A program made the translations under genes and the position numbers. The notes under the pieces were generated by a model that saw only the letters and a list, made by a program, of their open reading frames with translations, was not told the origin of the DNA and did no database searches. From positions 1,286,501 through 1,350,500 of the forward strand of contig OZ037769.1 in the NCBI GenBank assembly GCA_964035545.1: a stretch of 64,000 bases of DNA. Direction: 5' to 3'. The stretch comes from Bugula neritina (Eukaryota; Bryozoa; Gymnolaemata; Cheilostomatida; Bugulidae). How positions within the stretch are numbered: position 1 is the stretch's first letter; the number at the start of each line of letters is the position of its first letter. Below are positions 448-59,852 of the stretch, one piece after another.

Positions 448-2236
448 CTCGAGGATTTACCAATGTCTCTATTCTATCAACTTCTAGAAATAATCCCACT
501 GATGTACCTCACCCAGAGAGTTCAGACTGGAGAGTTCTGCAGTCTGGAGTAACACGCACAGAAATTGATCCTACCATATTCAAATTTGACTTTGCCCTAG
601 ATGAGAATGTAGAAGCTAGACACATTGCTCTCTACAGTGCTACTGGTGGATTACAGTTATTTGAGGTAGAGGTCTATGATGCAGGTGAGTGAAGTAGTTG
701 CTTAATATCAATTTAAGGCCCAGAAATTTACTACAAAATTTGTTCTATTGATATGGAGGTGGTTCTTAGTTGAAAAACTAAAACACTGCCTGAGTATTTG
801 TATAATAACCTTGAATTTTATCAGGTTTCAGCTAGTGTGTTAACATATGTAATGTAGAAATTAAATAATATAATTTTTAACTAAAATTTATATATTATTG
901 AACGTAGCTTATTGCTGAATTGACAACACATGCATATACAGTACATGTCATACATCATTCTGATTATTACCCTATAATATAATAAATTCACATCTAATTT
1001 ATCTAGATTAATCTAGACGTGAGTGAAATAGTATTTGATCTAGACTACCGTTTCTTCCATGCCATAGCCTAAATTCTCAATTATATATAATAGAACCATA
1101 CCTTCATATCACCTATTGGTAATTGAAACTCTAAATCATGTGAATTGCATTCATACATACCTATCAGACACTCCATTAACTGGTTAGTTTATTAGTAGGC
1201 CAGTATAATTCACTTACAGATTATTCTTACTATACTGTATCACTTACCAAAATGGTAACCTTATTCTGTATTAACATAGGAAGAGGAAAACCCCCTATAT
1301 ATATCAAACAATTTATAGCCTACACTACATGAATCAAGAGTGCATAGTAAATAATCAAATATTCCTAAGATGGCATTTTTTAGAACTGCTTATACATTTT
1401 TCAGTGAATATAGCAGAAGGAAGATATACATTCAGCAAGACTCATTATAACATATACGAGGTTAGTGGGAAAGCAGTAGATGTAAACCCTAGGTCGTTTT
1501 ATAAAAGTGAAGACAAACCTGACCAGTGGTGGAGAGTGGAGTTGGATGATACTGTATATGTTAGAGTACTAGCTATCCGTAATAAAGATTGTGAGTATAA
1601 TATTTGTGTTAATAATCTACAAAGCAGTTTATTTGCAACGTAATCAGGACTTGTATGAGAGTTGAAATAATTGCCCAACTAGTTTAGGGTAAATTTTAGT
1701 ATGAGGTAGAGGCATTTTGTAAAAAAAGAAAGATTACCATTGCAAAAGTGATAGAATGACATTTGTCAAACTACTTTAAATATTTAGGAATAGGTTTTAT
1801 TCAATTTAGTTAAGAAATTTAGGTTTCATTCTTTAAACATACTGTAAATAGCTTTATCATCTACTATTTTCACTTTAAATAAAATCTTGGAAAATAGCAT
1901 ACAACTTTGTTACAAACAATTCAATAATTCAATAAAAAGATCCTTTGTTCAATTCAATTCAATAATTCAATAAAAATCCCATTTGTTTTACTTAAGCTGG
2001 AAGGTTTAAAGACGTATCAATCCTGTCATCAACACACTCCTCAGTAACAGATGATCCTACACCTACAAGTTCAGAATGGACTATGGTCATGTCTGGGATA
2101 TCACGAGAATCAGATAGCTCTACAAAACTTGCATATAACTTTGATATAAGAAATGAGTTACAAACTAGACACATTGCTCTCTACAGCTCTAACAGTATTG
2201 GACTGAGCATACTAGAGGTTCAGATATTTGTATATG
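448..2236 (+). other. Receptor A fucolectin-like (FTP/F5-8C-like) domains: end of FTP1 and all of FTP2
   Basis: Exon 448-684 is the second half of FTP1 and ends with [12 protein letters not shown]...EVEVYDAG, the typical C-terminal strand of fucolectin/F5-8C folds. Exons 1405-1590 and 1997-2236 form FTP2, opening with NIAEGR and carrying [10 protein letters not shown], the family's WWRVDL core, and ending [20 protein letters not shown]. Tachylectin-4/fucolectin domains bind fucosylated glycans. I could not confirm the full His-Arg-Arg fucose site by eye, so ligand specificity is inference. Confidence 0.75.
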
Positions 2237-58700: not shown

Positions 58701-59852
58701 AGTGAGGTTGGGGATGGAATCACTTTAATAAAGATATCTATTGAGAACAGAGGAGCTGTAAGTGTCAATAATATAGACATTTCATAAAGTTAGAGTACCT
58801 ACACATTGACTGTTGTACTAGCTATTAAACAAAACTGATAAGTATAATTTTGAAATCTTTGAAAACAATAACAGGACATTTTTTGAAACTGTAGCAATTC
58901 ACTGAGCAAAATAATTGATAATTTATTCAGATTTTTCGCTTCTTATACAACTGGTTCGAGAATTAGACTAACTATAGCATAGTTCAATGTGAATTGAAAT
59001 AAAATGGTAGTTTATCAACAACACATAATAACTTGTATGATGTGCAGGTGTACAATGCTGACATAATCTTGGTAACTGATTGGCCTGAGACTGAAGAGTT
59101 CCCTAAAACAACTTCAATGTTGGCATATCTGGGAGAGCTGGAGAAATACCAGAGACAACACGGAGATCAAAGAATATGTCTTGTTGACTTGTAAGTAAAT
59201 ACTCCAGTTATTGATTTATTCTCAGTTTTCTTATATAAAAAAGAGCTACGGTCTTTAAAGTTAATCAACTCTGAAATTGAATTAGATGAGTGGAAAGACA
59301 CCTTCCCTTTACCCATAAATTACTGTCCTTCATTGTAGTATCTCATTGTATCTAATTTGCTGATTTGATGTACATAAACAGCTGTTGCGATTTTGAATTG
59401 TTACTATATATAAACCTATTTTTTTAGAAATGGGAACAACCGCTGCGGAATATTTGTCTCGGCATACAATGCTGTGGAGAAGCTGAAGACCGAACAGGAA
59501 GTTGATCTGTACAACACAGTGCTGATGTTGAGACACGCTCGTCCTGAGTTTGTTAGTGATCTGGTAAGTTCTCTATCAACACCATTTTATTGTAATATTG
59601 ATTACGTCATGTACCTGTGAGAGCACCGCAAATGGAATAGTTTTTTTCTAAAGGATAGAGTAAACTTTGCATGTGTTTTAGTTAGGTCATAGGATGCAAA
59701 TTGAGTTATATACATTTTAGTAGCTGAAATTGGAGATAGATAGACCTAATAATCCTGTGATGCATATTGTGTTTTAGAGGAGTTATGTCTACCTGTACCA
59801 ACTTCTTCAGCAGTACATAGATACTTTCTCTGAGTACGGAAACTTTCAGTGA
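43728..59852 (+). CDS. Receptor D: FTP-FN3 receptor-type protein tyrosine phosphatase
   Basis: Intact PTP-type paralogue; D1 should remove phosphate from protein phosphotyrosine. Signal peptide [20 protein letters not shown]. Exons: 43728-43797, 44125-44310, 44811-45047, 45768-45953, 46364-46606, 46820-46935, 47034-47199, 47430-47527, 47892-48096, 48229-48341, 48581-48749, 48912-49003, 49214-49418, 49815-49924, 50173-50338, 50443-50546, 50811-50997, 51156-51259, 51368-51572, 52003-52105, 52236-52515, 52805-52853, 53051-53186, 53384-53433, 53693-53841, 54270-54357, 54754-54827, 54945-54981, 55316-55413, 55748-55873, 56162-56310, 56445-56580, 57091-57267, 57382-57478, 57678-57733, 58047-58166, 58629-58757, 59048-59190, 59428-59563, 59778-59852. 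Two FTP, seven FN3, RKKR segment, helix, active-looking D1, inactive-looking D2. No stop or splice lesion seen. It differs from vertebrate LAR-type PTPs in having fucolectin-like rather than Ig domains. Confidence 0.85.
44125..46606 (+). other. Receptor D two fucolectin-like domains
   Basis: FTP1 exons 44125-44310 and 44811-45047; FTP2 exons 45768-45953 and 46364-46606. The FTP1 core reads [11 protein letters not shown] where the other copies have WWRVDxDDV, losing the acidic residues after the Trp pair. Its [11 protein letters not shown] also departs from [14 protein letters not shown]2 is standard ([10 protein letters not shown]). Confidence 0.75.
46701..46782. repeat. (AT)n microsatellite, about 82 bp
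   Basis: Pure AT run in the intron before the first FN3 exon of receptor D, at the same place as in the other copies. Confidence 0.97.
46820..51572 (+). other. Receptor D array of seven fibronectin type III domains
   Basis: Complete set of fourteen exons, two per domain (46820/47034, 47430/47892, 48229/48581, 48912/49214, 49815/50173, 50443/50811, 51156/51368), phase 1 between domains and phase 0 inside. Cores such as [30 protein letters not shown] and [12 protein letters not shown] are kept. Confidence 0.83.
52003..53186 (+). other. Receptor D RKKR segment and transmembrane helix
   Basis: Exons 52003-52105, 52236-52515 ([10 protein letters not shown]) and 52805-52853, then exon 53051-53186 with Pro-rich stalk and helix [20 protein letters not shown] followed by FRR. 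No sushi exon. Exon 53384-53433 continues the juxtamembrane region. Confidence 0.77.
54270..57267 (+). other. Receptor D phosphatase domain D1, catalytic residues intact
   Basis: Motifs in order: [74 protein letters not shown] (WPD acid loop), [14 protein letters not shown] (nucleophile Cys and phosphate-binding Arg; Arg codon 56458-56460), [15 protein letters not shown] (Q loop). Every landmark of an active classical PTP is present. Exon 54945-54981 has a normal AG acceptor here, in contrast to B. Confidence 0.9.
56886..56957 (+). repeat. tRNA-like sequence in D1 intron
   Basis: Same element as 27748-27819 in receptor B, with GTGTAAT...GTTAGTATG and GGGTTCGAATCCC boxes. The anticodon-loop region reads CTGTAAG (GTA, Tyr, if it were a tRNA). 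Stems pair poorly, so it is probably a tRNA relic or SINE head. Confidence 0.55.
57382..59852 (+). other. Receptor D phosphatase domain D2, catalytic Cys replaced
   Basis: Same features as D2 of [30 protein letters not shown], and RICLVDLNGNNRCGLF in place of the HC-x5-R signature (Cys to Asp, Arg kept), ending SEYGNFQ and TGA at 59850-59852. Likely a regulatory or substrate-binding pseudophosphatase domain. Confidence 0.82.

Follow-up and report, generated by a model that had tools for sequence, protein, structure and literature searches.

The stretch of DNA analyzed here (hereafter the window) comprises 64,000 nucleotides of the genome of the bryozoan Bugula neritina (C5:1286501-1350500, i.e. 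OZ037769.1, in a 215.8 Mb genome) and holds a tandem array of large genes predicted to encode type I receptors. Positions refer to the window, negative values lie upstream of it, and all loci described come from this one assembly. Comparison of the window with itself revealed four units (A, B, C, and D) arranged head-to-tail on the forward strand, with a DNA identity of 79-93%. Each has its own first exon (A at about -825, upstream of the window; B at 11911; C at 32100; D at 43728), which by eye reads as coding for a signal peptide, and its own stop (9666, 30768, 42500, and 59852, respectively). A model of D was built by hand from the sequence, and its exons as well as the tail exons of A were mapped onto the other units. 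The ectodomain was found to be common to all four, with FN5-FN6 missing from C. B and D end in a pair of protein tyrosine phosphatase (PTP) domains, A and C in a tyrosine-rich tail. The four head-to-tail paralogues with a shared ectodomain that a first-pass annotation had described were thus confirmed.

Gene D (43728..59852, + strand) consists of 40 exons encoding 1801 aa in one open frame, with GT-AG at every junction. It comprises two FTP domains (44125..46606; F5_F8_type_C_2 in Pfam), seven FN3 domains as counted by exon pairs, with four FN3 stretches listed by Pfam (46820..51572), a membrane-proximal domain (Fn3_PTPRU) with an RKKRD site (52003..52853), a transmembrane (TM) exon (53051..53186), and two PTP domains. 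PTP domain 1 (54270..57267; catalytic exon 56445-56580) has kept the WPD loop and a motif of 10 residues (not shown). The catalytic motif of PTP domain 2 (57382..59852) is replaced by VDLNGNNRCG, and by its sequence this domain is a pseudo-PTP. Pfam matched PTP in two stretches (E = 5e-115), and the top match was RPTP epsilon (2jjd). With a TM segment and a PTP domain carrying both the WPD loop and HC(X5)R, D is predicted to be a receptor PTP (RPTP). Unit B (11911..30768, + strand) is a damaged PTP-type copy: an extra base in a T run, possibly an assembly fault, shifts the frame of exon FTP1b (13248..13488), the acceptor of PTP exon P3 (25786..25825) has changed from AG to AT, and a loss of 27 bases affects exon P10, with an AG close by that would preserve the frame. 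Hence, the double PTP reported for both genes is present in two copies, but without a catalytic motif in the second domain of D and with damage in B.

Tail-type gene A (1..9666, + strand) encodes 1350 aa in an open frame, its introns are all GT-AG, and its exons 1-2 lie upstream (at about -825 and -237). The first exon within the window is the second half of FTP domain 1 (448..684). It is followed by FTP domain 2 in two exons (1405..2236), seven FN3 domains of two exons each (2359..7325; seven by exon pairs, five stretches in Pfam), the RPTP-type membrane-proximal (JM) domain with its RKKRD site plus a 49-nt exon T1 (7708..8511; Fn3_PTPRU, E = 8.7e-9, above cut-off), a sushi/CCP domain (8682..8891; E = 0.0013, just under cut-off), and a 449-nt exon for the TM segment and tyrosine-repeat tail (9218..9666). 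Gene C (32100..42500, + strand) joins to 1165 aa without FN5-FN6, provided that FN4b is spliced onto FN7a; within FN5a there is a stop, no AG precedes this exon, and FN5b-FN6b did not map. No PTP domain was found in A by a Pfam scan up to E = 1, nor in the C model as read from the exon map. The DNA match between A and D breaks off at 8205 in A and 52517 in D, close to where JM exon b ends, and in A and C the sushi domain, TM segment, and tail stand in place of the RPTP cytoplasmic part.

Further copies were located upstream of position 1, where the first-pass annotation had proposed to look. Reading of the flank and a tail-exon search identified Z directly upstream of A, a tail-type unit open to a stop near -2290. 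Units Y, X, and W, further upstream (about -54000 to -16500; L009, L010-L012, and L022), share FTP/FN3 exons with the array, W being a short unit before X (C5 1.230-1.235 Mb). Most exons of X did not map, and X holds three tandem copies of one FN3 stretch. Neither a PTP nor a tail ending was seen in X and Y, where Cys-rich, partly sushi-like exons come next; a Pfam scan of five such exons gave no match for three and sushi below cut-off for two. X and Y, together with W, possibly represent a third form, secreted or anchored otherwise. Downstream, blastn detected no relative of the D unit within 30 kb of the window. The order is W, X, Y, Z (tail), A (tail), B (PTP, damaged), C (tail), and D (PTP). 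Accordingly, the two endings assigned to A/C and B/D held, but their alternation is an effect of the window, since Z, next upstream of A, is also tail-type; strict alternation was rejected.

Within this cluster, forms with different endings not only share the ectodomain but also exchange it. In the mosaic comparison, D was nearest to tail-type A over the greater part of FTP1-FN2, reaching 99% in one 500-base window, and nearest to PTP-type B from FN7 onward, and D is therefore a mosaic. For intron 4, the identity is 99.8% in the A/D pair and 87.7-93.3% in the other nine pairs. FTP1 was the fastest-changing of eight ectodomain parts, with a pooled nonsynonymous divergence (dN) of 0.109 versus 0.040-0.067. 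Bootstrapping gave a dN of 0.110 (0.081-0.146) and a ratio to synonymous divergence (dN/dS) of 0.79 (0.49-1.31) for FTP1, as compared with 0.062 and 0.42 for FN1-4. FTP1 exceeded FN1-4 in dN in 1994 and in dN/dS in 1968 of 2000 bootstraps, and FTP2 in dN/dS in 1925 of 2000; these values derive from Y, Z, A, C, and D (B, X, and W excluded), and neither pairs nor bootstrapped codons are independent.

The ectodomain had been called a fucolectin. By sequence, its FTP domains are assigned to the F-type lectin fold family (both A and D exceed the cut-off for PF22633; match to FBP32, E = 5.4e-5). F-type lectins bind fucose through the residues H...RxD...R/K. When aligned by eye with FBP32, FTP1 has not kept the H and the RGD..R loop, and FTP2 has kept them in part (NKDSGR); several FTP1 differences lie at the fucose-binding loop position. 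The fold family thus stood, but the binding residues did not; sugar binding seems lost in the FTP domains of the window, and "fucose lectin" was rejected as a functional call. FTP exons of neighbors on C3 (L024 7617-7889 and L025 7669-7953, reverse complements) read THTS...WWMVDL...NRQD..CR, by eye nearer to F-type lectins, so other clusters may have retained the ability to bind sugar.

A search with JM exon b returned 21 places in the genome, 5 of them in this array, and eight elsewhere without a PTP exon listed nearby were taken further. Seven of the eight continue into sushi, TM, and a multi-tyrosine tail: at L023, L024, L025, L027, L028, and L029 a sushi domain (27-37% in tblastn) precedes an exon with a TM segment and several tyrosines, and at L026 both the sushi and the TM/tail exons are present by eye. 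At L030, a TM segment was seen, but the sequence read contained neither sushi nor tail; a PTP exon is encountered about 12 kb further. The seven loci are spread over three regions (C3 7.1, C3 7.7-7.84, and C5 2.2 Mb). In Pfam scans, sushi stays below cut-off in C3 tail genes (E = 0.04) and exceeds it in L029 (E = 1.8e-9). Three tail-exon searches yielded 4, 11, and 9 exons (the 9 comprising 4 strong and 5 weak ones). Sixteen of 18 strong tail exons lie no more than 80 kb from a PTP exon; for sets of 18 positions drawn at random on the two contigs concerned (2000 draws), the mean was 1.0 and the maximum 5. This count omits a partial tail at C3:8095466 (56 aa) and five weak matches on C1, includes C5:2254435 with its in-frame TAG, and is based on a PTP exon list in which 150 of 285 candidates were scored. 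Given the seven of eight JM loci and the 16 of 18 tails, the dichotomy is not local. Three clusters (C5 1.3 Mb, C3 7.6-8.1 Mb, and C5 2.2 Mb) contain both endings, as perhaps does a fourth at C5 8.5 Mb. A strong tail copy at C5 8.289 Mb (L031; G000:C5:8279601-8289600) has a sushi and tail pair 71% like that of A, which could be a fragment or this type of tail joined to a different ectodomain. JM exons group by cluster first and by ending second. Among many other PTP arrays in the genome, large ones lie at C1 3.97-4.23 Mb and C6 8.02-8.43 Mb; none of the three tail searches returned a strong match there, though more distant tails could escape them. Weak tail-like exons were noted at C1 3.38-3.43 Mb.

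The tails of the window carry DDTYSKV repeats. Immunoreceptor tyrosine-based activation motifs (ITAMs) follow the pattern YxxL/I x6-8 YxxL/I, and a consensus ITAM, YSRL-x8-YDKI, lies among the repeats in A (9520..9567, + strand) and C (42354..42401, + strand), in agreement with the ITAM-like tail of the earlier description. A strict ITAM is predicted in all four tails of A, C, Z, and L031, in the latter as YNEL-x8-YNKI. Shuffled tails contained one in 95 (A), 110 (C), and 175 (L031) of 10000 cases, and the six YxxPhi motifs of each of the four tails were equalled in 0-2 of 2000 shuffles, shuffling being a weak null for repeat-bearing tails. A pattern scan of the window tails detected no inhibitory counterpart (immunoreceptor tyrosine-based inhibition motif, ITIM). 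Two tyrosines align in eight of eight tails aligned. Tails on C3 have four tyrosines and an ITIM-like VxYxxL, with a YxxPhi count not above shuffles (234-377 of 2000), and those at C5 2.2 Mb have two YxxM each; since the motifs differ, the sign of tail signaling may not be the same in every cluster. As candidate partners, we detected, by proximity of exon matches, a locus combining tandem SH2 domains with a kinase (C7:14371513-14377601) and one combining tandem SH2 domains with PTP (C3:23740128-23748502), which would be Syk-like and SHP-like, respectively.

The two best protein relatives of A come from Watersipora subatra, a cheilostome bryozoan (34 and 31%); the top one (P0001) lacks PTP, although its gene model may be truncated. 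With the JM-PTP part of D as query, Watersipora occupied ranks 1-2 (42%), the bivalve Solemya velum rank three (34%), and Bugula neritina rank four (36%). A protein of the annelid Owenia fusiformis (P0030) resembles D in combining F5/8C (PF00754), FTP (PF22633), FN3, Fn3_PTPRU, and PTP in its precomputed Pfam list. The PTP half of the system is therefore not new. The statement that no such system has been described stood for the combination: in the part of the open-licence literature surveyed, we did not encounter an FTP-FN3 ectodomain placed on both ITAM tails and RPTPs and repeated in clusters. Taken singly, RPTPs, the FTP-FN3-RPTP architecture, paired receptors, and tails with an ITAM are already known.

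We lean towards the view that these genes encode paired receptors, with a receptor phosphatase as the "off" member, from a family of type I receptors that has been duplicating recently and exists in two forms. The window would then be one cluster of this large family. The tail form would have exchanged the cytoplasmic part of the RPTP for sushi, TM, and tyrosine tail, while the other form keeps its phosphatase. Both forms would bind the same variable ligand via FTP1; upon engagement, kinases would phosphorylate the tail tyrosines and SH2 proteins would be recruited, and the PTP form at the same contact would strip the tail phosphates and set the threshold. Near-identical ectodomains within one cluster, ectodomain exchange, and cytoplasmic modules that differ and potentially oppose each other are consistent with paired receptors; a shared ligand, co-expression, opposing signals, and a role in immunity or allorecognition are inferred. 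The paired-receptor layout had been proposed from the four units: the shared and exchanged ectodomain, the ITAM, and the recurrence speak for it, but strict alternation and an intact phosphatase in B did not hold. A bolder version, which we regard as tentative and rather doubtful, would be a bryozoan paired system on a lectin-FN3 scaffold, with the phosphatase as inhibitory half and ectodomains continually swapped between ITAM and phosphatase, the clusters of which include the allorecognition genes of the phylum.

Several observations weigh against pairing. Since the PTP copy of B is damaged, D is the sole intact phosphatase within the window. Ten patterns including the ITAM were tried, and outside this cluster and L031 none of six tails has a strict ITAM, looser YxxPhi pairs being present in all six, and four are ITIM-like (VxYxxL), so that "activating" may not hold for every tail. 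In the mosaic comparison, B was narrowly the best match to D in one middle window (48728-49227) and the best match to A in two (4175-4674 and 5675-6174). Because its dN/dS interval spans 1, FTP1 provides a case of fast evolution and no proof of positive selection. The comparison across clusters covers the JM exon only, and within clusters the ending has an influence too: the JM of D is nearest to that of B, PTP-type JMs on C3 are 88-89% alike versus 70-85% to tail-type JMs, and one C3 PTP JM reaches only 38%. No FTP, FN3, or JM match precedes L031 within 29 kb. A query with JM, sushi, TM, and tail of A found no tail-type protein outside this genome among 2797 candidates, in a library that may hold few bryozoans.

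A rival reading is an ordinary, expanding family of RPTP adhesion receptors, in which tail copies are RPTP duplicates that have lost the enzyme and act alone as adhesion or adaptor receptors without opposing partners, and in which tandem duplication in the recent past and gene conversion have left the ectodomains alike. Both forms do carry the RPTP membrane-proximal domain, conversion is possible between any close tandem copies, and the PTP arrays on C1 and C6 lack a strong tail match. However, the joint occurrence of the two endings in three clusters or perhaps four, with ectodomain similarity across endings, as well as the two tyrosines aligned in every tail compared, argue against it, and we consider this explanation fairly unlikely. 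A composite locus, with A and B (and likewise C and D) representing isoforms or alternative 3′ ends of a smaller number of genes, might be suggested by the head-to-tail order and near-identical ectodomains, but is highly improbable. Z, A, B, C, and D each possess their own first exon, ectodomain exons, and stop, which makes a joining of A to B unlikely; the A-D match ends near JM exon b; and AATAAA or ATTAAA occurs downstream of the units, signals that are common by chance in AT-rich DNA and were counted without a control. A single gene with alternative 3′ ends was rejected on the grounds of separate first exons, stops, and poly(A)-type signals. As a special case of paired receptors, the array might be an allorecognition complex, in which a polymorphic FTP1 decides between fusion and rejection and tail and PTP forms push in opposite directions. 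The nearest named relatives include bryozoans, a colonial phylum, FTP1 is the fastest-changing ectodomain part, and the Bugula genome paper, in the portion available, expected allorecognition genes and mentioned weak similarities to Alr1 (PMC7576161). On the other side, there are several unlinked clusters, antimicrobial defence fits equally well, and A and D lack Ig domains (none in the Pfam scan), unlike FF/FcoR of Botryllus as far as described in the text available (PMC12065747). An allorecognition role is plausible and unproven, and we think it unlikely that it accounts for the array.

Paired receptors of vertebrates offer the closest comparison. In the excerpts of the literature covered, CEACAM1/CEACAM3, Siglec-11/-16, and CD300A/C likewise combine near-equal paralogue ectodomains with differing cytoplasmic ends, CEACAM3 bears an ITAM-type motif like the tail form here, and the ectodomains of Siglec-11/-16 are held alike by gene conversion. 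In vertebrates, the ITIM member recruits SHP. The ectodomains differ (FTP-FN3 here, Ig there), as does the "off" partner, a putative receptor phosphatase here and an ITIM protein there. D resembles the FN3-rich RPTPs, whose classes include PTPRM/K/U, PTPRJ/Q, and LAR, in its FN3-rich ectodomain, membrane-proximal domain with a basic cleavage-like site, TM segment, and D1 and D2 domains, but has an N-terminal FTP pair in place of MAM/Ig and tail-type siblings without PTP. Alr of Hydractinia has an Ig domain. In Botryllus, also a colonial animal, the available part of the report on fuhc FF/FcoR describes Ig/sushi ectodomains with ITIM/hemITAM tails and CD45-like RPTPs expressed in the same tissue; the ectodomains are IgV, and there the phosphatases are not presented as siblings of the recognition receptors (PMC12065747). 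If the paired reading is true, a spiralian evolved paired receptors independently, using a non-immunoglobulin scaffold and a built-in enzyme as brake, and a long-standing question becomes testable, namely by which genes bryozoan colonies tell kin from stranger or control their cellular immunity. The array would offer a natural experiment, with one kind of ectodomain on two signaling chassis, many times over.

Some minor features were noted besides the receptor genes. An intron of B contains a weak tRNA match (27747-27821, + strand; 30.1 bits versus a gathering threshold of 29), and by eye a similar stretch lies in D at about 56890-56960; this is probably a tRNA-derived short interspersed element predating the B/D split. 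An insertion of about 0.8 kb in an intron of C (40458-41270), missing from A, has a 210-codon frame on the minus strand without a Pfam match and looks like a mobile-element fragment. On C3, past the tail-type gene of L026, gag/pol-like frames of a long terminal repeat retrotransposon were recognized by eye (about 5150-9800, reverse complement). Just 3′ of D, at the edge of the receptor array, tandem-repeat arrays of higher GC content extend over 61248-63263, with periods of 14; 16/29/45/75; 60; 22/41; and 25 bases.

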